Shown here piece by piece: positions 19,973 to 49,737 of a DNA stretch of 64,000 bases; positions within the stretch are counted from its first letter, which is position 1; the number at the start of each line of letters is the position of its first letter. Position numbers and translations under genes: made by a program. The notes below the pieces were generated by a model. That model had not been told where the DNA came from and ran no database searches. It was given only the letters and a program-made list of their open reading frames with translations. Origin of the DNA: Streptomyces sp. NBC_01142 (GTDB lineage: Bacteria > Actinomycetota > Actinomycetes > Streptomycetales > Streptomycetaceae). The stretch covers positions 1,612,001 to 1,676,000 of the forward strand of contig NZ_JAPEOR010000003.1 in the NCBI RefSeq assembly GCF_026341125.1, written 5' to 3'.

Positions 19973-20036
19973 GATACAGTTGAAGCGTAGCCGGATCGAT
20001 TGGTGCGGATTTGGGGGTATCTGGGCGGAGGGTGTC

Positions 20037-23000
20037 ATGCGAGGAGGCGTCCCTCACCTGCACGTCAGCAGTGGGTTTTCGGCCCGCTACGGCGCATCGC
20101 ACCCGCGCGACCTCATCGCCCGGGCCGCTGCGCGCGAGATCGGGACGGTGGCGCTGACTGACCGCGACATGGTCACCGGCACGGTGCGCTTCGCGAAGGC
20201 GGCCGCGGCCGCCGGAGTGAAGCCGGTGTTCGGCGTCGATCTCGGCGTTGCCGCCCATGTTCCACCGGCCGAGGTGCGCCGCCGGACCCCGGTGCGAGGC
20301 GGTGCGCATGTCGCGGAGGCCGCCTTCCGGGCGACGTTCCTGGCCCGGGCCGCGGGCGGGTGGGGGCGGCTATGCCGGCTGGTGTCCTGCGCGCATGCCG
20401 CGGCCTTCCCCACGGGCACGCCGCCCATGGCGTCGTGGGAGATGCTCGCCCAGCACGCGGGCGAAGGCCTGATGGTGCTGCTCGGTCCCGCGTCGGAGCC
20501 CCTTCGCGCCCTCGCGGCCGGGCGCGCGGACGTCGCCGAGCGGCTCCTCGCCCCGTGGCAGCAGATCACCGGCGACGGGCTGCGGCTGGAGGTCGTGTGC
20601 TGGGGTCTGTCCGGCACCGGCCCGGGCTCTGTCCGTCTCGCCGCGCACACCCTCGCGCTCGCCGACCGGCTCGCCATCCCGGCCGTCCTGACCAACGCCG
20701 TCCGCTACGCCGACCCGGCCCAGCGCCGGATCGCGGACGTGCTGGACGCGGCCAGGCTGCTGCGGCCGGTCGACCGGCGGCGACGGGACTGCGGCGAGCG
20801 CTGGCTCAAGGACGGGCCCGCGATGACCGGGATCGCGGAGCGGGTGGCGGCCGCCGCCGGGGCGGACCGGCGCCGCGCCGAGAGGCTGATCGCCGACACC
20901 GTCTTGGTCGCGGATGCGTGCGATGTCGACCCGGCCCGGGACCTGGGGCTTGGGGTGCCGCACTTCCCCGAACCCACCGTGGTCGGCGCCGAGCCGGCGC
21001 CGGACGGGGCGATGCGGCTGCTGCGGCAGCGGTGCGAGAGCGGCATGGTCGCCCGCGGCCTCGATCGCGACCAGCGCGCGATGGACCAGCTCGACTACGA
21101 GCTCGGCATCATCGGCCGGCTGCACTACGAGCCGTACTTCCTTGCCGTCGCCCAGGTCGTCGCCGACGTGCGTGACATGGGCATCCGGGTCGCTGCCCGC
21201 GGCTCCGGCGCCGGCTCCATGGTCAACCACAGCCTGTTCGTGGCCACCGCGAACCCCCTGGAGCACCGGCTGCTCTTCGAGCGCTTCCTGTCCGAGCGGC
21301 GCGCCTCGCTGCCGGACATCGACGTCGACGTCGAGTCCGCGCGCCGCCTTGAGGTCTACGACCGGATCATCGCCCGCTTCGGGCGGGAGCGGGTCGCGGT
21401 CACCGGCATGCCCGAGACATACCGCGCCCGCCACGCCCTGCGGGACACCGGCCTCGCGCTCGGGCTGACGCCGGCCACCGTGGACCGGATCGCGAAATCC
21501 TTCCCGCACATCCGCGCCTGTGACATCCGCTCGGCACTTACGGAGCTCCCCGAGCTCCGGCAACTTGCCGCCGAGGCAGAGCAGTTCGGGCCGCTGTGGG
21601 AGCTCGCCGAAGGCCTGGACGCGCTGCCACGCGGAATCGCCATGCACCCGTGCGGGGTGATCCTCTCCAACGTGAGCCTCCTGGACCGGCTGCCGGTGCA
21701 GCCCACCCCCGGGGGCGAGTATCCGATGCTCCAGGCCGACAAAGAGGACGTCGAGGATATGGGCCTGCTCAAGCTCGACGTCCTGGGGGTACGGATGCAG
21801 TCCGCCATGGCCCACGCCGTCAAGGAGATCTACCGCACGACCGGCAGGGCAATCGACCTAGACAACCCCGACCACGTCCCCCTCGACGACCGGTTCGCTT
21901 TCGCGCTCATCCAGAACTCGGACACGGTCGGCATGTTCCAGCTCGAGTCGCCCGGTCAGCAGGACCTGGTCGGCCGGCTCCAGCCCCGCGACCCGCAAGA
22001 CGTCATCGCCGACATCAGCCTGTTCCGTCCGGGCCCGGTCCAGGGCGGCATGCCCGCCCTCTACATCGCAGCCCGCCACGGCGCCGCACCCGCCTACCCC
22101 CACCCCGACCTGGAGCCGGTCCTGCGCGATACGTACGGGGTGACAATCTGGCACGAACAGATCATCGACATCCTCGCAGTCATGACCGGCTGCGACCGCG
22201 CTCTCGCCGAAGTAGCCCGCCGCGCCCTCAGCGACGAGCAGCGCCTGGCGAAGATCGAGACCTGGTTCCGGCAGCTGGCCGGCGCCCGCGGCTACAGCCC
22301 GAAGGTGCTCGACGACGTCTGGGACATCGTCTCCTCGTTCGGGGCGTACGGGTTCTGCCGAGCGCACGCCGTGGCGTTCGCCGTCCCGGCGCTGCAGTCC
22401 GCGTGGCTCAAGGCCCATCACCCCGCCGCTCTCTACGCGGGACTGCTGGAGCATGACCCGGGTATGTGGCCGGCCCGGGTCATCGTCGCCGACGCCCGTC
22501 GCCATGACGTCCCCGTTCTGCCCGTCGACATCAACGTCTCCAAGCCCCAGTACACGGTCGAGCAGACCGCATCCGGCTGGGGCGTCCGCATCTCCCTCGC
22601 GTCGGTGCACGGCATCTCCGACGACGAGGTCGCGAGGGTCACCGAGGGCCAGCCCTACACCTCCCTGCAGGACTTCTATGCCCGCGCCCACCCCAAGCTC
22701 CCGACCCTCGAGCGCCTCATCCGCATCGGCGCACTCGACCCGCTCAAAGGCGAGGCGACGCGACGGGACCTGCTACTGCAGGCAACCGAACTCCACCGCC
22801 AGGCCCGTACCCGCCCTGGCGCCAGCCAGCTCCCGCTCGACACCACGCTCCACGCCGCCAGCCCGTCCGGACTGCGGGAGATGACCGCCCGCGAACGGCT
22901 GGAAGCCGAGCTCGGCGTCCTCGAGATCGACGTCTCCCGGCACCTGATGGAGGACCACCACCGACTGCTGCGCGAGATCGGCGCCACCGACGCCGCGCAC

Positions 23001-23483
23001 CTTCGCGCGATGCACCCCGGACAACGCGTCCTCGTCGCCGGCGTCCGCGCCTCCACCCAGACCCCGCCCATCGCGTCGGGAAAGCGGATCATCTTCGTCA
23101 CCCTCGAAGACGGCTCCGGCCTCGTCGACCTCGCCTTCTTCGAGAACTCCCACGAGCAGTGCGCGCACACGATTTTCCACCACGGCCTGCTCCTCGTCCG
23201 CGGCACGGTCGAAGCCCGCGGACCCCGGCGCACCGTGGTCGGCGAGATGGCCTGGGACCTCGACGAACTCGCCGCCGCCCGCGCCACCCACGGCCCTCAA
23301 GCCCTCCTCGACATGCTGGGCCAAGCCCCGGCGCCCACACCCGCCCAGTCCGGCCCCTCGCGGACGATCCCGGACGGCACCGCAGGCGCCCGCCTGCACC
23401 CATGGAGCGATCTTCAGCCGGCGGGGAGCCGCTCGGCCGAACTCACCCGCCTTGGGCACAAGAGCCAAGGGAGCGCCGGATGA
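20037..23483 (+). CDS. dnaE2: Error-prone DNA polymerase DnaE2 (ImuC)
   Basis: A 1148-aa C-family polymerase. ATG 20037 follows GGAGGGTGTC; an in-frame TTG at 19980 is less likely. The order is a PHP domain with HLHVSSGFSARYGASHP, then the palm with the catalytic PDIDVDVES (about residue 425) and the GMFQLESPGQQDL and SFGAYGFCRAHAVAFA blocks, then helix-hairpin-helix and OB-fold (ASGKRIIFVTLEDGSGLVDL). DnaE2 carries out damage-induced mutagenic synthesis with ImuB. Its stop overlaps the next start (ATGA). The tail beyond residue 1100 is low complexity. The gene appears intact. Confidence 0.95.
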   Translation: MRGGVPHLHVSSGFSARYGASHPRDLIARAAAREIGTVALTDRDMVTGTVRFAKAAAAAGVKPVFGVDLGVAAHVPPAEVRRRTPVRGGAHVAEAAFRATFLARAAGGWGRLCRLVSCAHAAAFPTGTPPMASWEMLAQHAGEGLMVLLGPASEPLRALAAGRADVAERLLAPWQQITGDGLRLEVVCWGLSGTGPGSVRLAAHTLALADRLAIPAVLTNAVRYADPAQRRIADVLDAARLLRPVDRRRRDCGERWLKDGPAMTGIAERVAAAAGADRRRAERLIADTVLVADACDVDPARDLGLGVPHFPEPTVVGAEPAPDGAMRLLRQRCESGMVARGLDRDQRAMDQLDYELGIIGRLHYEPYFLAVAQVVADVRDMGIRVAARGSGAGSMVNHSLFVATANPLEHRLLFERFLSERRASLPDIDVDVESARRLEVYDRIIARFGRERVAVTGMPETYRARHALRDTGLALGLTPATVDRIAKSFPHIRACDIRSALTELPELRQLAAEAEQFGPLWELAEGLDALPRGIAMHPCGVILSNVSLLDRLPVQPTPGGEYPMLQADKEDVEDMGLLKLDVLGVRMQSAMAHAVKEIYRTTGRAIDLDNPDHVPLDDRFAFALIQNSDTVGMFQLESPGQQDLVGRLQPRDPQDVIADISLFRPGPVQGGMPALYIAARHGAAPAYPHPDLEPVLRDTYGVTIWHEQIIDILAVMTGCDRALAEVARRALSDEQRLAKIETWFRQLAGARGYSPKVLDDVWDIVSSFGAYGFCRAHAVAFAVPALQSAWLKAHHPAALYAGLLEHDPGMWPARVIVADARRHDVPVLPVDINVSKPQYTVEQTASGWGVRISLASVHGISDDEVARVTEGQPYTSLQDFYARAHPKLPTLERLIRIGALDPLKGEATRRDLLLQATELHRQARTRPGASQLPLDTTLHAASPSGLREMTARERLEAELGVLEIDVSRHLMEDHHRLLREIGATDAAHLRAMHPGQRVLVAGVRASTQTPPIASGKRIIFVTLEDGSGLVDLAFFENSHEQCAHTIFHHGLLLVRGTVEARGPRRTVVGEMAWDLDELAAARATHGPQALLDMLGQAPAPTPAQSGPSRTIPDGTAGARLHPWSDLQPAGSRSAELTRLGHKSQGSAG

Positions 23484-24488
23484 TCACGGACACCGCACTC
23501 CCGCGGCCGCGTGCGATCCTGCGGATCCACTTTCATCCCCTGGAACGGAGCGAAGAGCTGTACGAACAGCTGCTCGCCGTTCTCGAAGGCATCAGCCCCC
23601 GCATCGAGCCCCTGCGCGCCGACTGGTCCGCCTACGTCGACCTCACCGGCGCCCTCAATTTCTGGGACCGTGACGTCGAAGGCCTCATCGCTGTGCTCCG
23701 CCTCCGACTGCTCGCGCTCCACGGCGTTCAAAGCTCGGCCGGCGCTGGCCCCACACGCGGGATCTCGGCGATGGCCGCGGCCGCCACCCCACCCGGTGCC
23801 GCCACGGTTGTCCATGACGACCCCTACGAGATCGCCGCGTTCCTCCGCCCGAAGCCGGCCGCCACCCTGCCCGGCGTCGGCCCCAAGACCGCCCGCACGC
23901 TCGCCCGTTACGGCATCACCACCGTCGGCAACATTGCCGACACCCAGCTCCCTCCAGCGGATCCTCGGCGCCAGCGCCGCCCGCGAAGCCCACGACCTCG
24001 CCCACGGCATCGACGAGCGCTCCGTCGTCCCGGCCGCCGCCCCCAAGTCCGTGAGCACCAGCCACCGCTTCGACCACGACGAACTCGACCCCGACCACCA
24101 CCACCGCACCGTCCTCGCCCTGGTCGAGGAACTCGGCGCCCGGCTGCGCACCACCTGCGAGATCGCCCAGGCCCTCACGCTCACCGTCACCTACGCCGAC
24201 CGCACCCAGACCACCCGCAGCCGCACCCTCACCGAGCCGACCGCCCACACCCCCGCCCTCGCCACCACCGCGCGCGAACTCCTGACCGGATTCGGCCTCC
24301 AGCGCGCCCGCGTCCGCGCACTCGCCGTACGAGCAGAACGCCTCTGCCCCGTCGAACACGCCTCACACCAGCTCACCCTCGACGACCGCGACGAGAAGCT
24401 CCACCGTCTCGAATCCGCCCTCGACCGGGCTCGTGCCCGCTACGGTCCCGGCATCGGGGCCGCCTCCGCCTTCCCGAAGGCGGTGTGA
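23480..24488 (+). pseudogene. imuB: ImuB-like Y-family polymerase homologue, frameshifted
   Basis: ATG 23480 overlaps the dnaE2 stop. The first 155 codons match Streptomyces DnaE2-associated Y-family proteins (ILRIHFHPLERSEELYEQLL, then LPGVGPKTARTLARYGITTV). At about 23952 the frame changes: in the next frame the protein continues as SSLQRILGASAAREAHDLAH and runs to TGA 24486-24488 with the little-finger region. One extra C in ACCCAG restores it. The N-terminal catalytic Asp of active Y-polymerases is absent, as in ImuB, so its role would be as an adaptor for DnaE2. No imuA is next to it. Confidence 0.8.
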
Positions 24489-24511
24489 CTCCGGCTGCGG
24501 CCGGGGCGGCC

Positions 24512-24675
24512 AGGAAGAGATCAACGCCGAACACCCACGGGTGAGGGCCCGCGTCGAGCACACCTTCGCCCGCACGAAGAACTGGATGAGCCTGCGCGAC
24601 TGCAGTCAGAAAGGAGACGGCCGCCACCACCCCGCCGCCGCCATGCACAACTCGCCCTCGCCCGGGGAAACTTAG
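24512..24675 (+). pseudogene. IS5-type transposase C-terminal remnant
   Basis: The translated stretch EINAEHPRVRARVEHTFART then KNWMSLRDCSQKGDGRHH matches by pattern the C-terminal end of IS5-family DDE transposases, including the RARVEH motif. The expected ending HNLALARGN appears only after adding one base near 24648, so even this piece is broken. No left part of the element is present. It lies directly between imuB and the Imm49-like gene. Confidence 0.65.
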
Positions 24676-28004: not shown

Positions 28005-29675
28005 ATGACCAACGGCACTACGCCAGTTGTCCTTACCCGAACGCACCGGATCCTCATCGGCGTAGTTGTCGCAGGCGCGGTGATCATCGCCGCGATCGGT
28101 TTCGCCGGGTCGTACGCGGCTGTCCGCGAGCTCGCCGTCCAGAAGGGCTTCGGCGGCTTTTCCCTCGTCTTCCCCATCGGCATCGACGCCGGCATCTGTG
28201 TCCTGCTGGCGCTCGACCTTCTGCTGACCTGGCTGCGCATCCCGTTCCCGCTGCTGCGGCAGACGGCCTGGCTGCTGACCGCGGCCACGATTGCGTTCAA
28301 CGGCGCGGCGTCCTGGCCTGACCCGCTGGGTGTCGGCATGCATGCCGTCATCCCGGTCCTGTTCGTCGTCTCGGTCGAGGCGGCACGGCATGCGGTGGGC
28401 CGGATCGCCGACATCACCGCCGACAAGCACATGGAAGGCGTGCGGATCACCCGCTGGCTGCTCTCGCCGCTGCCCACGTTCCTCCTGTGGCGGCGGATGA
28501 AGTTGTGGGAGATCCGGTCGTACGAGGAAGCGGTCCGCCTCGAGCAGCATCGGCTCGTCTACGAGGCCCAGCTGCAGGCCCGCTTCGGGCGTCGCTGGCG
28601 GCGCAAGGCGCCGGTCGAGTCACTGATGCCGCTGCGTCTGGCGAAGTACGGCGTACCGCTCGCCGAGACCGCACCGCACGTCCTGAAGGAAGCCGGCATC
28701 GTCCTGAGCGCCGTGACGGACCGCGCTGACGGCCAGGTCTCTGGCGGGCAGCAGGGCGGTGAGCACGAGCGGGCGCTGGAGGGCGGCGAGATCTCGGCCG
28801 TCGGCCACGCCGAAGAGGTGCGCACCGCGGAGCCTTCCCTTCGCGACTCCGTCCCGGAGCGCGAGCATCAGGACGTCCCGGCGGTCGATTACGCCGACGC
28901 CTGCCGCGCCTACATCGAGCAGCACGGCGCCTTCCCCGACGCCGGTCAACTCGCTGCCTTCCTTGCCCAGTACGGGGTGACCGATCCGGCGACCGGCGGC
29001 CTGCTCGCCGAGGCGCAGCTGGAGCCGGTACTGGCCGAGCTCCAGCAGTGGATGGTCGAGCCGGAGACCGATGATCAGCCGGCCGGACAGGCCCCCGCCG
29101 TCGTGACCGATGCGGCCGGTGACCGAGGCGTCAGCCCCGTGACCGACACCGTCCGTCAGACCGCCGCCGAGGCGCATCCGTTCTTCGGCTCGGCCGCGCC
29201 GGCAGCGGGGGAGTCACCCAAATTTGGGTGGTCCGGAGATCCGGAGCCGTACGCGGCCGAGCAGGTGCCGGTTCCGGTGGCAACCGCATCGGCGGCAGGC
29301 GACCGTATGCCCGGCGGGGGAGTGCCGCAGCAGACTTCTCTCGATGTCCCCACGGGTGTGGCTGCAGAGGCAGCCGCGGGCGAGCCGGCCGCATGGGAGG
29401 CCACGGTCACCGACACGGGAGCGGCTACGGCGCGACTGCCTGAGCAGCAGACCCAGGAGCCCGATCTGGACCCCGTGCAGCAGCAGATCGTCACCGTGGC
29501 CGGGTGGCTGGCCGAGGCCGAGGACGCCGGCCAGAAGGTCTCCGGAGCGGAGGTCGCCCGCCGTCTCGGGCTGTCCCCGAAGACCGGCCAGCGGCGGGTC
29601 AACGCTGCGGCCGAGCACCTGGAGGAGCAGCGTCGGCAGCAGGGCCGCGCACATCTCCGGTCGGTCAACCGCTGA
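28005..29675 (+). CDS. DUF2637 membrane protein with C-terminal HTH (Spd-like)
   Basis: A 556-aa protein. ATG 28005 follows GCAGGAGGGG; an in-frame GTG at 27936 is less likely. Residues 15-140 hold four membrane segments typical of DUF2637 (VVVAGAVIIAAIGFAGSYAA, FPIGIDAGICVLLALDLLLT, the LLTAATIAFNGAAS region and HAVIPVLFVVSVEAARHAVG). A long acidic, repetitive middle region follows, and the end is a helix-turn-helix (KVSGAEVARRLGLSPKTGQR). Such proteins are encoded at the head of Streptomyces plasmid transfer regions and are linked to intramycelial spread. The 3' part carries several TGACCGAT motifs. Confidence 0.82.
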   Translation: MTNGTTPVVLTRTHRILIGVVVAGAVIIAAIGFAGSYAAVRELAVQKGFGGFSLVFPIGIDAGICVLLALDLLLTWLRIPFPLLRQTAWLLTAATIAFNGAASWPDPLGVGMHAVIPVLFVVSVEAARHAVGRIADITADKHMEGVRITRWLLSPLPTFLLWRRMKLWEIRSYEEAVRLEQHRLVYEAQLQARFGRRWRRKAPVESLMPLRLAKYGVPLAETAPHVLKEAGIVLSAVTDRADGQVSGGQQGGEHERALEGGEISAVGHAEEVRTAEPSLRDSVPEREHQDVPAVDYADACRAYIEQHGAFPDAGQLAAFLAQYGVTDPATGGLLAEAQLEPVLAELQQWMVEPETDDQPAGQAPAVVTDAAGDRGVSPVTDTVRQTAAEAHPFFGSAAPAAGESPKFGWSGDPEPYAAEQVPVPVATASAAGDRMPGGGVPQQTSLDVPTGVAAEAAAGEPAAWEATVTDTGAATARLPEQQTQEPDLDPVQQQIVTVAGWLAEAEDAGQKVSGAEVARRLGLSPKTGQRRVNAAAEHLEEQRRQQGRAHLRSVNR

Positions 29676-30550
29676 CCGACCCGCCCCGCGAGTGGCCGAT
29701 GACCGAGCCCGGTCATCTTCTTGTCCGGCCCCGTCGGTCACGACCGATTCCACGGTCGTGATACCAGTGACCGACGCCGGTGACCGATGGCTCCGTGACC
29801 GATCCCTGCGCCGGTATCCGATGACCGATCCGGTCCCCATCGGCCATCGGTCCTGACCGATCCAGCGCTCACCGGTCACCCCTGCGGCGTGACCGATCGA
29901 CCACCGGGGGCGCTGCTCCCAGCCCGCCCGGAACCAGGCTTGCCCACCCTCCCAGGAGGCTTGCCCAGGGTTGCTTCGACCGGTCACCGGGGCTTGCCCA
30001 GAACACCGGGAGGCTTGCCCAATCGGTCACTGGCGGCTTGCCCAGCAAATAGGCAAGCCTCTCACCTGCTCTTTTAGGGAGTTGGGCAAGCCTTCGGGCA
30101 AGCCCCGATGAGGAGAGTTCACGGCACGACATCCGAAAGGAGATGTGCCGTGCTCACCCTGTCGCAGCCCGCCCGCATCGCCGGCGGAATCTTTGACCGC
30201 CTGGACGCCGAGTGGGCAGTCCTGTGCGCGGACACTGCCGTCCAGGCCGTGGTGACCGATTGGCTGATGGCCGATCACCTGGCCGACGACGTCGCGGCCG
30301 TGACCGATTCCTGGGTGCGCAACCTCGGCCCCGTGCAGCTGCTCGCCACCCTTCGGCCGCGCGACGGCGTCGTGACCGATGAGCTGACCGACGCCGTACT
30401 GCGCGCCCTGCTGCACCGCGCGGCTGGCCGTGACCGATCTGCCACGCTCGCCGCCCGCATCATCGTCCAGGCGATGATCCCCGGCGCGGTCCGCATGACC
30501 CGCGGCCAGGTCCGTCCCTTCGGCGGCCGCACTTTCGACGACATCGGTCA
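28978..30550. repeat. Thirteen copies of octamer TGACCGAT
   Basis: Exact copies start at 28978, 29104, 29781, 29796, 29822, 29854, 29890, 30253, 30301, 30373 and 30431. Inverted copies are at 30022 and 30543. They occur both between genes and inside two genes, in more than one reading frame. Many one-base variants (TGACCGAC, TGACCGAG) also lie here. This is far above chance and looks like a DNA-level recognition sequence array, possibly of the kind bound by the Streptomyces translocase TraB. Confidence 0.75.
29937..30104. repeat. Array of GGCTTGCCC(A) repeats
   Basis: Five direct copies of GGCTTGCCCA start at 29937, 29958, 29991, 30012 and 30035. They are followed by three inverted copies, the first partial (30052, 30083 and 30096). 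The spacing of 21-33 bp is roughly two to three helical turns. The array ends 46 bp before the next start codon and would suit cooperative binding of a repressor or initiator. Confidence 0.75.
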
Positions 30551-31049
30551 CATGAGTGTCGCTGCCCTCTACGTCGTCGCACGCTCCGGTCGCATCCACA
30601 CCCGGCCCGGCCGGCCCGCCGCCAACCTCGCCCTGGACGCCCTGCGCCGGGTGTGCCGCGAGCTCGCCGCCGACCGGGAGGTCCTCGGCGAAGACCTGGC
30701 CCTCGCCGAGGACCTGGCCGACACCGAGCCGGGACCGGCCGAGAGCACCCACGTCTGGTCGGTGCGCACCGCCGCGGCCGCCGCCGGCCTCACCCCGGCC
30801 GGACCAGCCAGTGAAGCGGAGGCGAGCCGCGCCCGCCTCGAACTGCTCGAGCTGGTCCTGGACGCGATGGAGGCCGGCACCCTCTCGCCCGCCGACGGCC
30901 GGGCCATTGCCTGGCACTACACCACCGCCCCCGTCCCGGACACCGAGGCCGCCTCCCGCTCCGGCGCGACCGCCGGCGCGTGGCAGCGCCGGCGCTCACG
31001 CGCCGTGGACCGCCTGAAGTCCTCGCTCCAGCTGAGGCCTGCGGCATGA
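30150..31049 (+). CDS. Sigma-factor-like putative regulator of the transfer cluster
   Basis: A 299-aa protein. GTG 30150 follows AAAGGAG. Most of the protein is helical and unrecognised, but the C-terminal 60 residues (LSPADGRAIAWHYTTAPVPD, then GATAGAWQRRRSRAVDRLK) look like sigma-70 region 4 or a related winged-helix end. An N-terminal region around residues 105-150 (ARIIVQAMIPGAVRMTRGQV) may match region 2 only loosely. It follows the GGCTTGCCC array and four TGACCGAT copies lie within the gene. It may be the regulator of this cluster. Confidence 0.6.
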   Translation: MLTLSQPARIAGGIFDRLDAEWAVLCADTAVQAVVTDWLMADHLADDVAAVTDSWVRNLGPVQLLATLRPRDGVVTDELTDAVLRALLHRAAGRDRSATLAARIIVQAMIPGAVRMTRGQVRPFGGRTFDDIGHMSVAALYVVARSGRIHTRPGRPAANLALDALRRVCRELAADREVLGEDLALAEDLADTEPGPAESTHVWSVRTAAAAAGLTPAGPASEAEASRARLELLELVLDAMEAGTLSPADGRAIAWHYTTAPVPDTEAASRSGATAGAWQRRRSRAVDRLKSSLQLRPAA

Positions 31050-31103: not shown

Positions 31104-31370
31104 ATGCCCGCCACCGCCAAGGCGCCCCTGGATGCCGACGAAGAGCGCGTCACCCGCGCCCAGCGTCTGCTGATCCAGCTGGGCGCCGCACTGGTGCACC
31201 GACCCTTCGACACCACCACCCACGACCGGCTCCGGACCTTCCTCACCGACGACGCCAAGGACGTCCTTGCCTCCCTGGAGATCCTGGAGCAGCGCCCCGA
31301 GACCGAACTGCGCCAGCGGATCGGCGAGCTGGCCGGACACTGCCTCTTCCCCGCTGAGGGTGCGGCATGA
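31104..31370 (+). CDS. Small hypothetical protein of transfer cluster
   Basis: An 88-aa helical protein (RVTRAQRLLIQLGAALVHRP, then TFLTDDAKDVLASLEILEQR). ATG 31104 follows GTAGGAG. Its stop overlaps the next start (ATGA), so it is produced with the TcpC-like protein. No domain is recognised. Confidence 0.7.
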   Translation: MPATAKAPLDADEERVTRAQRLLIQLGAALVHRPFDTTTHDRLRTFLTDDAKDVLASLEILEQRPETELRQRIGELAGHCLFPAEGAA

Positions 31371-32476
31371 AATCTGTGCTGACGCGCCGCCCTGCCAAGG
31401 CCGCGGCCACCGCACCGGCCAAAGCCGAGCCGCAGGACTGGGCCATCGACGAAGGCCCCCGGGATGTCGGCGGCTGGTCGACCGGCGCCCAGGCGAACAC
31501 CTCCACGATGATCCGCTGGACAGTCTGGGGGCTGCTCGTCCTGGGACCGCTGCTCGGCGCGGCCGCGTACCTGTCGGTGCCGGCCCAGGCCGGACCATCG
31601 AAGCCGAAGGCGGCGCCCGCCGCACCGGCCGCCGTCGGCGCCCAGGGCGCCGGCGGCTTCGCCCAGCTCTTCGTCGCCGCCTACATTGCCGCGGGGGAGG
31701 GCGACCAGGCCAAGCTCGCCGCCTACTACCCGGCCGCCACCAGCCTCCGCCTCGAAGGGGCTTCGGGCCGGCGTACCGGCGAGCAGCTCACCGTCGTACG
31801 GCTGCGCCAGGCCGACCACGGCCTCTGGTCGGTGACGGTGGCCGCCCGCATCACCGAAGCCGAGCCCACCGCCAAGCCCTCGGACAACGACCGCCGCGAC
31901 GCCAAGGCCGACGCCAAGAAAGCTGCTGCCGAGGCCGTCCACTACTTCCAGGTCCCGGTCGCCACCGCTCCCGCCGCAGGCGGGGCGAACGGTTACGTGG
32001 CTCTGGCCATGCCGGCCGAAGTTGCCTCCCCCGAGCGGATCGAGGCGCCGGAGCTGGTCTACGGACCGCTGCGGCCGGCCCTTCCCACCGACCCGCGGAC
32101 CCAGGCCGTCACCGAGTTCCTGACCGCCTATCTCACCCGCGCCGGCGCCGGTGAGCTCGACCGCTACCTCGCGCCCGGAACCAAGCTCGCCGCCATCACC
32201 CCCGCGCCCTACACCGGCATCGCCGTCGACCAGCTCGCCATAGAGGGCGAGAAGAGCTCCGAGCCCGTGACCACAGTGTCCGGCGACGGCACCACGCTGC
32301 GGCTGCTGGTCGCCCTGCGCGCCACGGGACACGACGAGGTCCGCGTCCCGCTCACCTACGCCCTGACCCTCAAGGCCCGCGCCGGCCGCTGGGAGATCGC
32401 CTCCCTGGACGGGGCTCCGGCTCCTGCGCCCGTCCGTCCGGCTGCCCCCTCTGCCAGCCCCACCCCCACGCCCTGA
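31367..32476 (+). CDS. TcpC-like conjugal transfer protein (VirB8-type)
   Basis: A 369-aa protein with a cytoplasmic N-terminus of about 48 residues, one membrane segment (WTVWGLLVLGPLLGAAAYLS) and two extracytoplasmic NTF2-like repeats (FAQLFVAAYIAAGEGDQAKL at about 105 and VTEFLTAYLTRAGAGELDRY at about 245). This is the layout of TcpC, the VirB8 counterpart of Gram-positive type IV systems. The Pro-rich end (APVRPAAPSASPTPTP) is a linker-like tail. It is probably an assembly factor of the transfer channel. Confidence 0.82.
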   Translation: MKSVLTRRPAKAAATAPAKAEPQDWAIDEGPRDVGGWSTGAQANTSTMIRWTVWGLLVLGPLLGAAAYLSVPAQAGPSKPKAAPAAPAAVGAQGAGGFAQLFVAAYIAAGEGDQAKLAAYYPAATSLRLEGASGRRTGEQLTVVRLRQADHGLWSVTVAARITEAEPTAKPSDNDRRDAKADAKKAAAEAVHYFQVPVATAPAAGGANGYVALAMPAEVASPERIEAPELVYGPLRPALPTDPRTQAVTEFLTAYLTRAGAGELDRYLAPGTKLAAITPAPYTGIAVDQLAIEGEKSSEPVTTVSGDGTTLRLLVALRATGHDEVRVPLTYALTLKARAGRWEIASLDGAPAPAPVRPAAPSASPTPTP

Positions 32477-32490
32477 CAAGGAGAGTCGTC

Positions 32491-32784
32491 ATGCACGAAA
32501 TCACGCTCGCTGCCGGCTGGATCACCACCGGAACCGGCCTCGGTAACGACATCAAGGACCTCATCTTCAACGTCGCCATCCCTGTGCTGTGCGGGTTGTT
32601 CGTCGTCGTTGTCGGCTGGAAGACGAAGGCGCCCGGCCCGACGATCATGGCCGTCATCTTCGCCGCGATCGTCTGGGGCGGCTCGGCGAACATGGACACC
32701 CTCAAGGACAAGACGACCGAGGACATCAACCAGTACGACGACGGCGGCGCCGGCCAGCAGCTGTGGAACCAGGGTGACCAGTGA
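32491..32784 (+). CDS. Small membrane protein of transfer channel (TcpD-like)
   Basis: A 97-aa protein with two hydrophobic segments (LIFNVAIPVLCGLFVVVVGW and TIMAVIFAAIVWGGSA) and a short acidic C-terminus. GGAGAG precedes ATG 32491. Size, topology and position between TcpC- and TcpE-like genes match TcpD/VirB2-type components of Gram-positive type IV systems. The stop overlaps the next start. Confidence 0.75.
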   Translation: MHEITLAAGWITTGTGLGNDIKDLIFNVAIPVLCGLFVVVVGWKTKAPGPTIMAVIFAAIVWGGSANMDTLKDKTTEDINQYDDGGAGQQLWNQGDQ

Positions 32785-33392
32785 CCGCTGTCCTGGTCGA
32801 GCCGGCTGAGAGCGAAGACGAGCTGATCGGACGCTGCTACACCAAGGCCCGCCGCACTCCGCTGGTCGTCGGGTCCGTTCCGGGAGGCGGCGGCCGCAGC
32901 CTGCGCCTCCCGGGCGGCCCGTACACGCTCACCCAGCTCGCCGCGATCGTCGCCACGTTCGTCGTGCTGATCCTGTCCCGGCCTCTGTGGGGCGGGCGCG
33001 GGCTGATGGACGTGGTGGTGTTGCTCGGCTGCCCGTTCGGCGTTGCCTTCCTGCTGCGGCACCTGCACATCGACGGCCGCAACCCGGCGGCAGCCGCGGC
33101 CAGCGTTGCGGTGATGATGACCGGCCCGCGCTGGGGCCGCCTTCACGGCCGGCCGTTCCGGCCGGCCCGCCCCGCCCGCGGTGCGACCCGCATCACCGTC
33201 GCCGCTGCCGACGCCGCAGAGCCGTCCGCCGCTTCGGCTGCCCCGGCACGCACTGCGCCGACCCGGGCCGCGCGCCGGCCCATACCGGCAGCACCCGCAT
33301 CCTCCGCAGCTGCCAACTCCCCTGTGGCGTCCGGCGTGCAGGCCCTGCTCGCCCGCCGCTCTGCATCCGCTCGAGATGACCTGGAGGAATGA
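32781..33392 (+). CDS. TcpE-like membrane protein (VirB3-type)
   Basis: A 203-aa protein starting at GTG 32781. RCYTKARRTPLVVG and a pair of membrane segments (TLTQLAAIVATFVVLILSRP and MDVVVLLGCPFGVAFLLRHL) precede a long Ala/Pro/Arg-rich cytoplasmic tail. This order is typical of TcpE proteins, which bridge the VirB4 ATPase and the channel. It overlaps virB4 by 4 nt (ATGA). Confidence 0.78.
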   Translation: MTAVLVEPAESEDELIGRCYTKARRTPLVVGSVPGGGGRSLRLPGGPYTLTQLAAIVATFVVLILSRPLWGGRGLMDVVVLLGCPFGVAFLLRHLHIDGRNPAAAAASVAVMMTGPRWGRLHGRPFRPARPARGATRITVAAADAAEPSAASAAPARTAPTRAARRPIPAAPASSAAANSPVASGVQALLARRSASARDDLEE

Positions 33393-35935
33393 TGCATCTG
33401 CCGATCCGGCATGTCGCCAACAACCTCGTCTTCACCACCCACGGCACCACCTGGGCCCTCTGGCGGGTGGCGGCCGCCAACTACAGCCACGCGCCGGCCA
33501 CCGCGAAGAAGCGCCGGCTGAAGTCACTTGAGTCGCTGTTCAAGTCGCTCACCGGCGAGCCGATGCTCATGTCGCTGTGCCCGCAGGTCGACCCGATCGC
33601 CGTCGTCCGCGCCATGGTCGCCGACGTCGACCTGAAGAAGTCGCCGCGCTACGAGCTGCTCGGCCACGCGGTCCTGGACCAGCTCGAGGAGATGGAGCTG
33701 ACGGGCCGCACCGACTGGCTCGCAATCCCTCTGCCCGCGCTGTCCCGCAAGGACGCCGCACTGTCCGCCTTCCAGGCCGCCAAGGCCGAAGTCGAGCTGC
33801 AGCTCGGCCTGATGCCCGCCCCCATCACCGCCGGCGAGATCGAGCGGCGTACCGAGCAGGCGATGCGGATGCACGCGCAGTGGCCGTCCGGGGTCACCAT
33901 GCGGCCGGCCACCGAGGTCGAGATTCTGTGGATCTACGGGCACAGTGCCCGCCGCGGCCTTGCCGAGCCGTTCCTGCCCGACGGCACCGAGCAGGGCCTG
34001 CGCGGCCGCGGCCGCACGGTCGCGGCCCTGGGGGAGGTGCTGCTCGCCGAGGGCGGCGCCGACTTCAAAGAGCGCCGGGCCGCACCGGGCAACCCCTTCG
34101 AGCGGCGCTATCTGCAGGTATCCAGCGAGTGGGGCGACTCCTACCAGGCGATGCTCGCCCTCTCCGAGATGCCGGAGGCCTTCGCGCTGCCGGGGGCGGC
34201 GTACCTGCAGCAGCTCGACGATCTGGCCTACCCGGTCGACTGGACGGCCCGCCTGGTCATCACCCCCGGTGCCAAGGCCGAGGCCAAGACCCGTAAGCGG
34301 GCCCGCCACCTGAAGGCGCAGGCCGCCGAGTACGTCGGCGACCCGGCAGGGCCGCCCACCTCGATCGCGAAGAACGAGATGGACAACGACGAATACCGCG
34401 ACCGGCTCACCTCGTCCGCGCGCGAGGTCGAGATCCGCGCCATGGTCACCCTGGCTGTGTGGGGGGCCAGCCCGGACGACGCCCAGGATCGTGCCGCTGC
34501 CCTCGCATCGGATTTCGGGGCGACGGACTACACCTTCTCCCGCCCGGTGGGGGAGCAGTCCAACCTGTGGCACGCGATGCTGCCCGGCTGCCGCACCCCG
34601 CGGGTGATGACCGGGTACGCCCAGTACCTGCTCGCCCGCGACTTCGCGATGGCCATGCCCTGGTGCGGCTCCCAGCTCGGCGACGAGCGCGGCGGCCTGT
34701 TCGGCCTGCAGCTCGCCTCCGGCGGCGCCCGCCCCGTCATGGTCGACCCCGCCCGAGGGCCCCGCCAGAACGCCTCCGCCTCCATGGCCTTCATCGGCGA
34801 GCTCGGCGCCGGCAAGTCCGTCGGTCTGAAAACGGCGGTCTACAACGTGCTCGCCCGCGGCCATCAGCCGGGCCGGCCCGACTCCCGCGGCCGCGCCGTC
34901 ATCGTGGACCGCACCAAGGAAGAGGAGTGGGCACGGTTCGCCAGCGCTTGCCCAGGCACCACCCAGGTCATCAGGATCGACCAGACCGCCGAAGTGTCTC
35001 TCGACCCCCTGCGCCTGTACGTACAGGACAGCCCGAAGGTCGCGGCACGCTTCTGCGAGTCCTTCCTGACCCTGCTGCTCGGCGTGAAGCCGATGGACCT
35101 GGAAGGCGTCGCACTGTCCGAGGCGGTCCAGGCCGTTCTGGAACGCCCCGAGCCCTCCATGCGCGCCCTGGTCGACGAACTCACCGCCCGCGGAGCTGAG
35201 GACACTTCTGCCCGCAACCTGGCCCGCAAGCTCAAGGCCGTAGCCCGCAAGGACCTCGCCGCCGTCGTCTTCGATGACACACTCCCGGTCGTCGACACGG
35301 CGCGAGCCGACAGCGTCGTCTTTCTCGTCAACTCCCTCGCCCTGCCCAAGAAGAGCGAGCTCGCCTCCGAACACCGCATCGAGCGCCTCGAGTTCGAGAA
35401 GGTGCTGGGCCGGTCCCTGATGTACCTGATCGCTGCCGTCGCGCGCGAGACCGTCATGAAGGCCAAGGAAGAGTTCGGGGTCGCGGTCTTCGACGAGTGC
35501 TGGTGGCTCACCAGCTCGGAGGAGGGCCTGGAGCTGCTGCTCGAGCTGATGCGTGACGGCCGTAAGCACAACGCCGCCGCCTACGTGGGGTCGCACGACC
35601 CGCACGACATCGGGCCGGCCGACAGCGAGAAGGGCGCCATCATCCGCGGCCTGATCCCGCACCGGCTCCTGTTCCGCCAGACCACCCGGTCGCTGGCGTC
35701 GCGCGGGCTGGAGTTCCTCGGTGTGGACGCCACCGATGCCGACCTGCTGGACCTGGTCACCGCCGGCCTGTCTCCGCTGGATCTGCCGGACGAGGAGAAG
35801 CTGGCCCGTGCGGGAGAGTGCCTCTACCGCGATCTCGCCGGCCGCATCGGAATGATGCGGGTCCTCATTCCGGTCGACCCGGCCGTCATGCGCGTCATCC
35901 ACACCACACCCAGCGACTACCGGGCCGCGGCATGA
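33389..35935 (+). CDS. VirB4-type transfer ATPase
   Basis: An 848-aa cytoplasmic ATPase. A long N-terminal domain carries LFKSLTGEPMLMSLCPQVDP and the region around YLQQLDDLAYPVDWTARLVI. A RecA-like domain follows with Walker A GELGAGKS (about 470-477) and Walker B VAVFDECWW (about 698-704). It powers channel assembly and substrate transfer in type IV systems. It is co-directional and overlaps both neighbours (ATGA), so it is strictly coupled to the VirB6-like gene. The gene is full length. Confidence 0.92.
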   Translation: MMHLPIRHVANNLVFTTHGTTWALWRVAAANYSHAPATAKKRRLKSLESLFKSLTGEPMLMSLCPQVDPIAVVRAMVADVDLKKSPRYELLGHAVLDQLEEMELTGRTDWLAIPLPALSRKDAALSAFQAAKAEVELQLGLMPAPITAGEIERRTEQAMRMHAQWPSGVTMRPATEVEILWIYGHSARRGLAEPFLPDGTEQGLRGRGRTVAALGEVLLAEGGADFKERRAAPGNPFERRYLQVSSEWGDSYQAMLALSEMPEAFALPGAAYLQQLDDLAYPVDWTARLVITPGAKAEAKTRKRARHLKAQAAEYVGDPAGPPTSIAKNEMDNDEYRDRLTSSAREVEIRAMVTLAVWGASPDDAQDRAAALASDFGATDYTFSRPVGEQSNLWHAMLPGCRTPRVMTGYAQYLLARDFAMAMPWCGSQLGDERGGLFGLQLASGGARPVMVDPARGPRQNASASMAFIGELGAGKSVGLKTAVYNVLARGHQPGRPDSRGRAVIVDRTKEEEWARFASACPGTTQVIRIDQTAEVSLDPLRLYVQDSPKVAARFCESFLTLLLGVKPMDLEGVALSEAVQAVLERPEPSMRALVDELTARGAEDTSARNLARKLKAVARKDLAAVVFDDTLPVVDTARADSVVFLVNSLALPKKSELASEHRIERLEFEKVLGRSLMYLIAAVARETVMKAKEEFGVAVFDECWWLTSSEEGLELLLELMRDGRKHNAAAYVGSHDPHDIGPADSEKGAIIRGLIPHRLLFRQTTRSLASRGLEFLGVDATDADLLDLVTAGLSPLDLPDEEKLARAGECLYRDLAGRIGMMRVLIPVDPAVMRVIHTTPSDYRAAA

Positions 35936-38226
35936 GCTCGCTCACGAACTGGCGGATGCGGCTGCGGGCGTTGGGCTCCGCACGGCTGCGCCTGGCGCTG
36001 CTCGTCGCCGCAGTCGCCGCCACCACGTTCACCTTGCTCACCACGCTGCCCGCCCACTCGGAGCCCCTGCCGGCCCCGTCTCCGAGCGCGCCGACTGCGC
36101 AGACGGCGCCGGGGCAGCGCACTCCCACGCCGGAAGAAGTTGAGGCGATCGAGAACGTCCTGCGCGAGCAGGGGGAGCGCCTGTCGAAGGCCGCGCAGGA
36201 GGGCATGCTCAAAGGCGAGAAGGAACGGCTGCGCAAGCTGCTGCCCGACGAGGGCGGCGTATTGGGTGTCTTCAACGTCACCGACGCCAACGGCATGCCC
36301 ATCAGCGCCTACACCGTCAGGTCCGACACCGGCAACATGCTCGACTGGGACCTCGGCATCCAGAACCTGCTCACCGAGCTGTGCTTCATGGCCACCAAGT
36401 GGCTCATCGCGTTCTGCTCCTGGCTCATGGTCTGGGCGCTGTCCTTCGGCCTGGCCAAGCTGCTGCTCGTTCCAGTGCTGTCAGTCGCCAACTCGCTGCA
36501 CACCCGCGTAATTCTGGAGATGGGCCTATCGGCGCTGTTCCTGTCGGTGTGCGCGGTCATCTGCGTCGCGAGAATCTTCTTCGGCGACAAGGCCAAGGGC
36601 TGGGGCGACGCCGCCCTGTCCGTCTTTCTGGCTGCACTGACGACCACACTGCTGGTCTCCACACCGCAGACGCTGCTGGGTGAGGAAGACGGAGCGATCG
36701 CCGTAACCCGCGGCCTGGCCCTGGAAGTTGCTGACGTCATCCTGGACGCCAACCCGGCCACACCGCAGGCCAATGACGGAGTGACCACCCCGGCCACCAG
36801 CAACACCATCTCGCGGCCCCTGACCGACGCGCTGACCGACGCCTTCATCGTCAAGCCGGCCATGCTCCTGCAGTACGGGCGCGTCTTTGAAGGGGAGTGC
36901 GCGGCCGAGTATTCCGACACCAAGCTCGCGCAGCTGGCCTTCGACCGGAGTGTCAGCTCCCGCACCGGCATGCTCAAGAAGGTCACCGGCCTGGCCGACT
37001 ACGTCGACCCCACCGGCGGCGCCATCTCGGGCTGGTACAACATGCAGATCGACATGTCCCAGCAGTGGGCGGTCGATCACTTCGGCAACCCGCCCATGCA
37101 GCGCTTCGAAGAGAAGTGCGTTCCCGGCGATGCTGACGCGGCGAAGAAGGCCTCGTTCGACAAGGTCGGCGGCAGCGTCTTCCTCCTCATCGCCGCCCTC
37201 ATCGTCACCGTCCTCATCTCCGGCCTGGCCGGGTCTTTCCTGGTCGCCCAGTGCCGCATCGCCTGGGATGCCATCCGCGGCGAGCCCGTCCTGGTAGCGG
37301 GCACCATCCCCGGCGCCGGCCGCGCCTTCCTGTGGGACTGGGCTGCCTCGGTGCTGCGCAACCTGGGACTGATGCTCACTTCGGTGGTGGCGCTCGCCGT
37401 CTTCATCGTTGTGGTCCAGGCCGTCCTCGATCCCGTACAGGTGGACTGGGGCAGAGAACTGACGCTGCGGTTCCTGGTCGTGGACATCGTGTGCATCGGC
37501 GCGGTCAAGAAGCGCAAGCAGCTTGCTGCCCGCTCCAAGCAGGTCGCGGCGAACTTCCGCGCGAAGATGTCGGCTGGCCGCATCGGCGGCACAAACGGCT
37601 CCGCCTTCGGCCCACCCGCCTCCGACACCGTCCCCAAGAACCGCCACATCGGCAGGAAGACCGCCCGCGGCCTGGTGCGCGGCGCGATGGTCGGAGTGTC
37701 CCTCGCCCAGGGCAACCCGCTCGCCGCTGTCGGCTACGCCCTGCCCCGGACCGTCGGCGCCACCGCCCTGATGAGCCGGATCAACACTGGCGGCCGGGGC
37801 GGCCGTCGGCGCCCGCCGGCCCGGCCTGCTGGCCGCCCCTCGCCGCGCCCAGGCGGTCAGCCTCCCGGCCGTCCCCGCCCGTCACCCAGAGGCGAAGTGA
37901 GCCCACGCACCGAATGGGACTTCGACTTTTCCGAGCCCTCCACCAGCCCAGGCAACGGTCGCCTGGGTGCTCCGCCGCGACCTACCCACCGCCCCGGAAC
38001 TCAGCCTGCCCGCCGCCGGCCGACTGCCCACCCTGCACAGCCTGCCGGCAACGCTCCGACTCCGGCTAACGGGCCCCGCCCGGCCGCCGTGCAGCGGGGC
38101 GGGGGACAGCGGGCCACGCCTCGGCACTCGGCCCCGACCCAGCCCGCAGCGTCCCCGCGCCAGCAGCAGTTGCGGCAGCGACTGGACCGCGGCACCCGCC
38201 GCACCCCGCCGAGAGGCGAGTCGTGA
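35932..38226 (+). CDS. VirB6/TrbL-like polytopic transfer protein
   Basis: A 764-aa membrane protein. A signal/anchor at residues 17-40 (LRLALLVAAVAATTFTLLTT) precedes a periplasmic helical region (EVEAIENVLREQGERLSKAA). A membrane domain spans residues about 145-255 (FMATKWLIAFCSWLMVWALS, LEMGLSALFLSVCAVICVAR), and further segments lie at about 415-500. The last 170 residues are Pro/Arg/Gly-rich and probably cytoplasmic. This matches VirB6-like channel proteins of actinobacterial type IV clusters. The start overlaps the virB4 stop (ATGA). Confidence 0.85.
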   Translation: MSSLTNWRMRLRALGSARLRLALLVAAVAATTFTLLTTLPAHSEPLPAPSPSAPTAQTAPGQRTPTPEEVEAIENVLREQGERLSKAAQEGMLKGEKERLRKLLPDEGGVLGVFNVTDANGMPISAYTVRSDTGNMLDWDLGIQNLLTELCFMATKWLIAFCSWLMVWALSFGLAKLLLVPVLSVANSLHTRVILEMGLSALFLSVCAVICVARIFFGDKAKGWGDAALSVFLAALTTTLLVSTPQTLLGEEDGAIAVTRGLALEVADVILDANPATPQANDGVTTPATSNTISRPLTDALTDAFIVKPAMLLQYGRVFEGECAAEYSDTKLAQLAFDRSVSSRTGMLKKVTGLADYVDPTGGAISGWYNMQIDMSQQWAVDHFGNPPMQRFEEKCVPGDADAAKKASFDKVGGSVFLLIAALIVTVLISGLAGSFLVAQCRIAWDAIRGEPVLVAGTIPGAGRAFLWDWAASVLRNLGLMLTSVVALAVFIVVVQAVLDPVQVDWGRELTLRFLVVDIVCIGAVKKRKQLAARSKQVAANFRAKMSAGRIGGTNGSAFGPPASDTVPKNRHIGRKTARGLVRGAMVGVSLAQGNPLAAVGYALPRTVGATALMSRINTGGRGGRRRPPARPAGRPSPRPGGQPPGRPRPSPRGEVSPRTEWDFDFSEPSTSPGNGRLGAPPRPTHRPGTQPARRRPTAHPAQPAGNAPTPANGPRPAAVQRGGGQRATPRHSAPTQPAASPRQQQLRQRLDRGTRRTPPRGES

Positions 38227-39374
38227 CCAAGCAACGTAAGAAGTGGCTGGCGGGCGGCAGCAGCCTGATCGCGCTGGCGATCATCCTCATGGGGGCGATC
38301 GCTGCGCACGTCACCGGTGTCGCCCAAGGCGACGCCGAGGCCGCCGCCCGCACCCGGGCCCGCTGCTCCGTCGGCGGGGCCCCGGGCATGGACGTCGACA
38401 CCGCCCAGGTTGCGCAGCAGGTGAAGGCCGTGCTCGCCGGAAACACCGGCGACGTCCAGGTGTCGGGCCTGTCGCTGCCCAAGGAGCAGATCCCGAACGC
38501 GAAGGTGATCGTGGCCACCGGCGTGCAGATGAAGATCCCAGCCCGCGGGCAGGTCATCGCGCTCGCTACCGCCCTGCAGGAATCAACCCTGCGCAATATC
38601 GACCACGGCGACCGCGACAGCCTCGGCCTGTTCCAGCAGCGGCCCTCCCAGGGCTGGGGCACCCGTCAGCAAGTCCTCGATCCGGTCTACGCGTCGACCA
38701 AGTTCTACAAAGCGCTGAGGTCCCTGAAGGACTGGGAGCACATGCCGCTCACCGTCGCCGCCCAGAAGGTGCAGAAGTCGGGGCTGCCCGACGCGTACGC
38801 CAAGCACGAGCCGCTGGCCACCGCACTGCAGCGGGCCATCGCGCCGACGCTCGGCGCCGCCGGTGCCAGCCCCGCGCTCACTGGCGGCTTCGGTACGGGC
38901 GGCTGTGTCACGCAGGCCGGCGCCGACTACGGCGACATTGCCCCGGGCAAGCTGCCGGACGGCTACCAGATCCCCATCAACGCCCCCATGCAGGCCCGCA
39001 ACGCGATCCGCTGGGCGCTCGGTCAGCTCGGCACGCCGTACCAGTGGGGCGGCACGTGTACCAACCCGCACGGCAACGTCGCGCGTGACCGGTGCGACTG
39101 CTCGTCCCTGATGCAGCGTGCGTACGGAGTGGCCGGCATCGAGATCTCCCGCACGACGTACACGCAGATCAACGACGGGCGGCCGGTGTCCACCAACGCA
39201 CTCCAGCCGGGCGACCTGGTGTTCACCGAGGGCACCGCGTCCCGCCCCGAGCACGTGGCCATGGCGATCGGAGATGGACTTGTCGTGCACGCACCGCGCC
39301 CGGGACGCGTGGTGGAAGTGGCCAAGGTGGCTACCCACGGAACGATCCTCGTGGCCCGACGCATCGTGCCCTGA
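38223..39374 (+). CDS. Cell-wall hydrolase with lysozyme-like and NlpC/P60 domains
   Basis: A 383-aa secreted or membrane-anchored protein. It has one N-terminal hydrophobic segment (SSLIALAIILMGAIAAHVTG), a lysozyme-like region (ALATALQESTLRNIDHGDRD, then SLGLFQQRPSQGWGTRQQVL), and a C-terminal NlpC/P60 domain with the catalytic Cys in DRCDCSSLMQ and His in EHVAMAIGDG. The pair would cut glycan and peptide bonds to let the transfer channel pass the cell wall (VirB1-like role). It starts at GTG 38223, coupled to the VirB6-like gene. Confidence 0.9.
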   Translation: MTKQRKKWLAGGSSLIALAIILMGAIAAHVTGVAQGDAEAAARTRARCSVGGAPGMDVDTAQVAQQVKAVLAGNTGDVQVSGLSLPKEQIPNAKVIVATGVQMKIPARGQVIALATALQESTLRNIDHGDRDSLGLFQQRPSQGWGTRQQVLDPVYASTKFYKALRSLKDWEHMPLTVAAQKVQKSGLPDAYAKHEPLATALQRAIAPTLGAAGASPALTGGFGTGGCVTQAGADYGDIAPGKLPDGYQIPINAPMQARNAIRWALGQLGTPYQWGGTCTNPHGNVARDRCDCSSLMQRAYGVAGIEISRTTYTQINDGRPVSTNALQPGDLVFTEGTASRPEHVAMAIGDGLVVHAPRPGRVVEVAKVATHGTILVARRIVP

Positions 39375-40674: not shown

Positions 40675-40856
40675 AAGTCCCTCGTGCGGGTGGTGTCACC
40701 CTCACACCCCATGTGGAGGGTAGGGACGGAATGCAACGAACAGGGTGACAGAACTCCAAGAGCCGCATCTATGCGGTCTTGTGGCATTCCGCTGATGGTG
40801 CGGATGGCGGGTCGCTAAGGTCCAGTGCAGGAGATCGTGTTGCCGGGGGTGGGCGC

Positions 40857-49723: not shown

Positions 49724-49737
49724 AACGGAGCACCACG

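Follow-up and report, generated by a model that had tools for sequence, protein, structure and literature searches.

We describe here an array of a short DNA motif in a 64,000-nucleotide stretch of Streptomyces sp. NBC_01142 (contig NZ_JAPEOR010000003.1, positions 1,612,001 to 1,676,000 of the forward strand), which we refer to as the window and whose first letter is position 1 of all coordinates given below. At the head of a gene cluster for conjugative transfer, 13 copies of the octamer TGACCGAT lie within 1.6 kb, in and beyond a gene for a protein with a DUF2637 domain. The array is probably the binding site of this adjacent protein, which would tether the DNA of the element to the membrane. 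Covariation between one residue of the protein's C-terminal helix-turn-helix (HTH) and one base of the motif makes direct binding of the array by the HTH very likely; the membrane location and the tethering are what we infer in addition. The array itself is clustered and conserved, it is linked to the HTH, with which it covaries in the way just mentioned, and it is independent of both ParB and the VirB4-like ATPase encoded in the window.

A clustered array at a conserved place

The count of 13 copies of TGACCGAT between 28978 and 30550, made in an initial annotation of the window, is exact, with 11 copies on the forward strand and two on the reverse (30022 and 30543). The whole window holds 16, where shuffled sequences led us to expect 1.62 +/- 1.32 (maximum 7; none of 100 shuffles reached 16). 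The genome of 10,104,557 bases has 106 copies of GTGACCGAT and seven of its reversed control. Because the motif is this common, it is the clustering and not the count that is the point: 11 of the 106 copies fall inside the 1.6-kb array, and no second cluster of GTGACCGAT appeared among the first genomic places listed. The octamer is thus not evenly spread, and the cluster is confirmed as real.

As had been noted, the copies lie both in genes and between them (two in the DUF2637 gene, six intergenic, and five in the next gene). The two in the DUF2637 gene start at 28978 and 29104 on the forward strand (span 28978–29111), fall in the stretch encoding the linker of the protein, and read V-T-D. 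The gap between the genes (29676–30149, 474 bp) holds the core of this array, which we call array 1, and all of a different array, array 2, described in the last section. In the core of array 1, TGACCGAT starts at 29781, 29796, 29822, 29854, and 29890 on the forward strand (span 29781–29897), together with GGCCGAT at 29839 and GACCGAT at 29846 on the reverse strand, and a further octamer lies within array 2 (30022–30029, reverse strand). The copies in the next gene start at 30253, 30301, 30373, and 30431 (forward strand) and at 30543 (reverse strand; span 30253–30550). Besides the octamers, the stretch contains three copies of GGCCGAT and three further copies of GACCGAT. The remark that the copies occupy several reading frames holds but carries little weight, since five of the seven coding copies are in one frame, reading V-T-D. 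Their bias to one orientation is clear in the window (11:2) but weaker across 42 related loci (331:152, with versus against the DUF2637 gene).

Shuffling synonymous codons gives a measure of how far the coding copies exceed what the proteins demand. In the next gene, none of 5000 shuffles reached the five octamers observed (0.35 expected). The excess in the DUF2637 gene is weaker, its two octamers being reached in 206 of 5000 shuffles. The same test on genes of relatives (L003 twice, L001, and L002) gave 2, 0, 0, and 1 of 5000; the DUF2637 gene of L002, which contains none of its own octamer, showed no excess.

A search for distant DNA matches found 212 plasmid records (206 from Streptomyces) that match the region in part, with at least 80% of it covered in seven. 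The HTH occurs in 53 plasmid records. We examined loci from 10 of these 212 records, 33 from named genomes, and more that were reached via the next gene, the DUF2637 protein, and the HTH. The array lies at the same place in all of the first 10 plasmid relatives, with 10–19 copies of TGRCCGAT per 3-kb stretch; in L001, 15 of the 21 copies of TGACCGAT in a 217-kb record fall inside 0.85 kb. The form TGGCCGAT predominates in L002, L006, L007, and L015, and some other loci are mixed. Because the octamer is unevenly spread and the array is found at the same place in relatives, the suggestion of a dedicated cis-acting DNA locus is supported, although neither a clt (cis-acting locus of transfer) of the TraB type nor a ParB-type parS is supported (see below).

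The repeated unit is better written as RTGRCCGAT, often in tandem GACCGAT heptads. Over 47 related loci, 46 pairs are spaced at 7 bp, which corresponds to such tandem heptads, and there are 15 divergent pairs at 8 bp and convergent pairs at 6 bp (25, many of which recur at a single conserved position within the next gene) and at 17 bp (18). The 17-bp start-to-start spacing is that of the convergent pair 29822/29839 of the window. It should be noted that these counts come from related loci and hence are not independent, and that spacings of 24, 46, 52, and 58 bp are frequent too. Overall, the array gives the impression of an assembled nucleoprotein site rather than of scattered single sites. 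In L008 (6491–8624), the intergenic array is doubled, with two small genes separating the copies.

Linkage and covariation with the DUF2637 HTH

The DUF2637 gene (28005–29675, forward strand; PF10935, E value 1.5e-45) encodes a predicted N-terminal membrane domain, a long variable linker, and the C-terminal HTH. The match passes the gathering score of the family (155.5 bits against a cut-off of 22.8) and was made on an open reading frame (ORF) opening at 27936 (GTG), the start at 28005 (ATG) being our own reading. Hydrophobic stretches by hydropathy are at 12–40, 48–84, and 106–127 of the protein. The structure model has four low-confidence helices at the N terminus, a long low-confidence linker, and confident HTH helices; the membrane domain probably comprises four helices. 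The HTH tail is encoded at 29451–29672 (forward strand; AlphaFold helices 8–25, 32–39, and 43–72, with a mean predicted local distance difference test score [pLDDT] of 86), and residue 44 of this tail piece, which is second in the predicted recognition helix, is a Lys (codon AAG, 29580–29582, forward strand). In one genome the HTH occurs twice on one contig, far apart and in opposite orientation (G054:C1:119197-119415 and G054:C1:8557712-8557927), each frame with one internal TGA.

The array tracks the HTH of the DUF2637 protein and not the transfer genes. Six DUF2637 genes (L078–L083) have N-domains 83–89% identical to that of the window but other C-termini, and in the stretches examined they are accompanied by no TGACCGAT and at most one TGGCCGAT; two more distant DUF2637 genes with other C-termini (L084 and L085) have no octamers. 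Conversely, octamers are present at HTH loci that lack the next gene (L074, L075, L077, L092, L093, L095, L096, L116, and L120), with at most one copy of GCTTGCCC, the core of array 2, whereas in L024 and L026 the next gene and GCTTGCCC are present without DUF2637, and the octamers number 0 and 2, respectively, per 3-kb stretch. From this double dissociation, we conclude that the octamers belong with the DUF2637 HTH and array 2 with the next gene. At 11 distant loci (L031–L035, L037–L041, and L043) with a remote homolog of the next gene and no adjacent DUF2637, there is at most one TGACCGAT; the genomes of L031 and L034 have a related HTH elsewhere. Separation of gene and array was also seen. 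L023 has an array of the G type (10 G : 3 A at the variable third position, where TGACCGAT has A) without adjacent DUF2637, and an HTH with Arg at the key residue (R-type) on the same contig. In G090, no array adjoins the R-type HTH, but one of the G type (9 G : 2 A) lies ~40 kb away. In both cases the type of array agrees with the residue of the HTH. The DUF2637 place beside the array of L011 is taken by an unrelated ORF that, by eye, is transposase-like.

Two further observations concern DUF2637 genes with altered ends. In L129, the N-domain is 88% identical to that of the window and the HTH is changed, and the 4.7 kb examined contain no octamer. Elsewhere, short repeats of different sequence come after DUF2637 genes with other C-termini (GGGTGGAA in L078, 6799–7472; GGTGCGCA in L082, 6564–7200; GATGCACC in L081, 7605–8500), and these repeats are perhaps the arrays of those genes.

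For the covariation table, L044, L046, L072, and L087–L091 (the same loci as others), matches with E values >1e-8, and the pseudogene L097 were dropped. Removal of the duplicates L045, L047, L049, L052, and L070 then took 47 rows to 42, one of which (L099) is without a readable residue. The 41 nonredundant loci with a readable residue have Lys (24), Ser (3), or Arg (14) near the start of the recognition helix. The 27 Lys and Ser (K/S) loci go with TGACCGAT (291 A : 51 G), and the 14 Arg (R) loci have either TGGCCGAT or both forms (44 A : 154 G). The counts for L094 (2 A, 9 G) were taken from L123, its array lying 40 kb away; without L094, the R loci give 42 A : 145 G. A rank test of K/S versus R, made without correction for kinship, gives p 1.4e-7 (loci with fewer than four sites, i.e., L118, are left out of the test on fractions), and the two ranges of G fraction overlap solely through L086 (K, 0.50) and L016 (R, 0.47). 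In the gap sites, defined as the first 330 bp past the HTH, the ratios are 139 A : 26 G for K/S and 18 A : 82 G for R, with more overlap. Among one-letter variants in the gap, it is G at position 3 that increases in R loci, from 26 to 82, and the variant TGACCGGT is also common in the gaps of K/S loci (70). Moreover, the V-T-D motifs become V-A-D at several places in the protein of the neighboring gene in R loci, the changed base lying in the gene too. At position −1 of the unit, 90% of K/S-type sites have a purine. Of the HTHs found later (L125–L128, outside the 42 loci), L126 (R) is accompanied by 5 A : 6 G and L125 (K) by 10 A : 8 G. Of the binders that the initial annotation had put forward (the coupling ATPase, the DUF2637 HTH, and a sigma-like protein), it is the HTH that varies together with the sites.

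Several results weigh against an array read by a membrane-anchored HTH. The tree of HTHs, built with the key column omitted, has just four changes of residue class and five of motif class. It offers two independent supported pairs, where a proper test would take at least six. In this thin test, the motif was concordant in both for 169 of 200 random pairings, in one for 31 of 200, and opposite never. The N-domain tree (from which the truncated L021 was left out) is poorly resolved, with six changes of each class and one supported pair. Support for the covariation after correction for kinship is suggestive, not significant. In addition, the motif cut-off of 0.45 G was picked after the counts had been seen; R loci are often mixed, with L005, L016, L017, and L126 at ~1:1; some K loci are weak (L009, L125, and L086, the latter, at 3:3, falling inside the R range); and, on gap sites alone, the G fraction is at least 0.5 in three of 24 K/S loci. 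Orphan arrays exist in L019 and L027, in whose genomes a search found no such HTH. As for the anchor, the membrane topology was read from hydropathy and from a structure model of low quality (pLDDT 54.8), and L010, L117, and L119 have an HTH frame by the array but no DUF2637 N-domain in the stretch examined, so that anchoring may not be universal, unless these three genes have decayed. Finally, four ParB queries and one ParA query had no match in the window.

Anchoring, transfer, and partition

Our preferred explanation is that the DUF2637 protein would sit in the membrane by its N-terminal domain, while the C-terminal HTH, on a long flexible linker, would read RTGRCCGAT in direct and inverted pairs. 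Many bound copies along 1.6 kb could then fasten the element DNA to the membrane. The purpose may be stable inheritance, as the array often lies beside parABS, or presentation of the DNA to the transfer machinery, and possibly both. We lean toward anchoring for maintenance that is also used by transfer: maintenance is favored because some carriers are without a VirB4 of the window type, and a role in transfer stays possible because the array usually heads the transfer cluster.

The records searched for this ATPase bear on the most serious alternative, that the array is a locus of the clt or oriT (origin of transfer) type at which the transfer machinery picks up the DNA, either directly or via DUF2637. 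This we consider possible though rather unlikely. The array does head a conserved TcpC/VirB4 cluster in the first plasmid loci examined. In G090 it has stayed at the transfer cluster with the DUF2637 gene ~40 kb off, octamer clusters lie 3–7 kb before VirB4 in the L119 record, and DUF2637 genes with other C-termini are near coupling genes of type IV secretion systems or FtsK genes in L083–L085. Against it, VirB4 was present in nine of 14 records searched (including L001 as positive control), and three of the records with no match to the window VirB4 at an E value of 0.001 (L074, L075, and L077, of 487, 666, and 153 kb; other transfer systems were not searched for) keep the HTH gene and the array. 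Other VirB4-free records are L118 (HTH fragment only, no array) and L081 (other C-terminus). In the L116 and L120 records, VirB4 is ~95 and ~87 kb away, respectively, from the array, which is accompanied by DUF2637 and ParA. A Pfam scan of 20 ORFs selected from those of the window revealed no TraB of the FtsK/SpoIIIE type. A second octamer cluster was seen in the L077 record, near 12.6–12.9 kb.

The initial annotation had likened the octamer to the recognition sequences of TraB, and this likeness is not borne out. According to PMC4170104, a clt is bound by hexameric TraB at 8-bp repeats (TraB recognition sequences). The array shares with these that short nonpalindromic 8-bp repeats cluster beside transfer genes, mostly in one orientation. 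It differs in that no FtsK/TraB was found beside it among the ORFs scanned, the binder is apparently the DUF2637 HTH, the orientation bias is ~2:1 in relatives, and the array is kept in records with no match to the window VirB4. The octamer of pSVH1, which we take to be GACCCGGA, differs from that of the array.

A partition site was the other function suggested. Partition by ParB, with the octamer as centromere of a neighboring ParAB, has very little in its favor beyond position. Of the 18 annotated HTH loci, 13 have ParA and/or ParB annotated within the stretch examined, both were found by tblastn in L009 (which has no annotation), and clusters of sites close to parAB are usual for centromeres. 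However, in seven of nine stretches (L001, L002, L003, L004, L010, L014, and L077), repeated perfect palindromes are present at parAB, separate from the octamers; the palindrome search gave none in L028 or the window, the other two stretches. These palindromes are candidate parS sites (TTTTACCGCGTAAAA in L002, L003, and L014; ATTACGCCGTAAT in L001 and L010; GTGATAACGCCGTTATCAC in L077). The octamer, which is nonpalindromic, does not follow ParB: the ParBs of L003 and L014 are 80% and 83% identical to that of L002 and share its TTTTACCGCGTAAAA, yet L002 has the G octamer and the other two the A octamer, a split that matches HTH R versus K, whereas L001 and L003 have the A octamer in common although their ParBs are ~33% identical. 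The window, moreover, has the array and no ParB match. In L028, palindromes of a similar kind are, by eye, interleaved with the octamer array.

It is improbable that the array is a cluster of operators through which DUF2637, as a membrane-bound transcription regulator, controls the transfer operon: the array surrounds the start of that operon and adjoins array 2, which is linked to the operon's first gene, but 13 sites in 1.6 kb, seven of them intragenic, are many for an operator, and the array follows DUF2637 where there are no adjacent transfer genes (L074 and L077). Iterons of plasmid replication, for which we see scant chance, would fit repeats in and beside a gene, as at rep-iteron loci, and the 21/33/21/23-bp spacing of array 2, but what the adjacent gene encodes is a membrane protein, and its HTH varies together with the motif; a helicase or primase is annotated nearby only in L007 and L074 among the annotated HTH loci (Rep families were not searched for). 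Least credible is a by-product of coding, in which V-T-D repeats in two proteins would generate the octamers. V-T-D does account for five of the seven coding copies, but six copies are intergenic, no synonymous shuffle of the next gene reached its count, and V-T-D changes to V-A-D together with the nongenic sites in R loci. For the whole array, this explanation is already contradicted.

The anchoring reading has partial parallels in known systems. The array fails the ParB-parS features tested and one TraB/clt feature, and may best be described as a DNA-anchoring array whose reader, a membrane protein, has a sequence specificity of its own, somewhat clt-like or centromere-like. SpdB2 of pSVH1 is described in PMC4170104 as an integral membrane protein with nonspecific DNA binding, and spdB2 of SLP2 as reported to aid stability (cited there). 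The DUF2637 protein resembles SpdB2 in its N-terminal hydrophobic stretches, long cytoplasmic tail, and gene adjoining transfer genes, and is unlike it in having no significant sequence similarity and in the sequence-specific recognition indicated here. With filters off, a profile run against the SLP2 spdB2-like protein alone gave a weak match (E value 0.018, 0.9 bits); this protein had no PF10935 match, and SpdB of pIJ101 gave no hit (pSVH1 SpdB2 itself was not compared). For SCP1 (PMC13245405) and SCP2 (PMC12260392), the parS sites to which ParB/ParT binds are reported to be inverted repeats of 13, 18, and 19 bp (13 and 19 bp in SCP1), and the parAB palindromes above resemble the inverted repeats described for both plasmids. 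The array is like these ParABS systems in adjoining parAB in many relatives, which makes a role in stable inheritance plausible, and unlike them in being a nonpalindromic 8–9-mer in many copies, with a membrane protein and with separate parS candidates. Two other proteins are similar in part and belong to unrelated families: the omega repressor of pSM19035 binds heptad arrays in direct and inverted order, and Noc of Bacillus is a DNA-binding, membrane-attached protein.

DUF2637 is a plasmid-borne domain to which Pfam assigns no function, and the literature searched names it once, in a single paper, as the domain of a phage-related candidate gene. Our reading supplies it with a predicted target and a predicted contact residue. 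If the reading is right, large Streptomyces plasmids and elements would have a membrane anchor for their DNA separate from, and often beside, ParABS, which would bear on the upkeep of linear plasmids in hyphae and on delivery of DNA to the transfer machinery. More speculatively, and at odds that we put somewhat below even, DUF2637-HTH proteins and heptad arrays could provide actinobacterial plasmids in general with a centromere that is sequence-specific and anchors the DNA in the membrane, the membrane protein being itself the reader of the DNA. One recognition-helix residue would set specificity, and through swaps of the C-terminal domain every element would have an array of its own. Such a centromere would serve inheritance alongside ParABS and would also present DNA for transfer.

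Array 2, the transfer cluster, and the wider window

Array 2 (29937–30104) consists of copies of GGCTTGCCCA, with exact cores GCTTGCCC at 29938, 29959, 29992, 30013, and 30036 on the forward strand and 30084 and 30096 on the reverse, i.e., five direct then two inverted cores ahead of the gene that opens the transfer cluster (30150–31049, forward strand; no Pfam match). Array 2 probably belongs to this gene, called the next gene above, because the core changes with the family of the gene (GCTTACCC in L013 and L022; GCATGCCC in L023 and L051). Some of its remote homologs have weak CTGGGTCA, GCTGACCC, or GGATACCC repeats. Its description as sigma-like is hardly supported, as Sigma70_r4_2 was matched solely in one of 10 members (E value 0.059).

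The Pfam-assigned transfer cluster (31367–39374, all genes on the forward strand) includes a TcpC-like gene (31367–32476; PF12642, E value 6.8e-15), a TcpE-like gene (32781–33392; below the cut-off), the VirB4/TcpF-like ATPase (33389–35935; AAA_10, E value 1.2e-90), and an NlpC/P60 gene (38223–39374). With both TcpC and a VirB4/TcpF ATPase present, the cluster is of the Tcp/Tn916 type, although the match of the ATPase to the NCBIfam TcpF model (E value 7.3e-33) is far under the cut-off of that model. A Replication-relaxation family protein (49408–50682; PF13814) is a possible partner of the transfer cluster, and a large WD40 beta-propeller protein is encoded close to it (40779–43601). Farther along, Tad/Flp pilus-like genes (58808–63021) include one T2SSE ATPase and two T2SSF proteins. 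Upstream of the array, following a DnaE-like ORF (19980–23483), overlapping frames at 23159–24544 are perhaps a broken gene for a Y-family polymerase, judging by eye from the translations.

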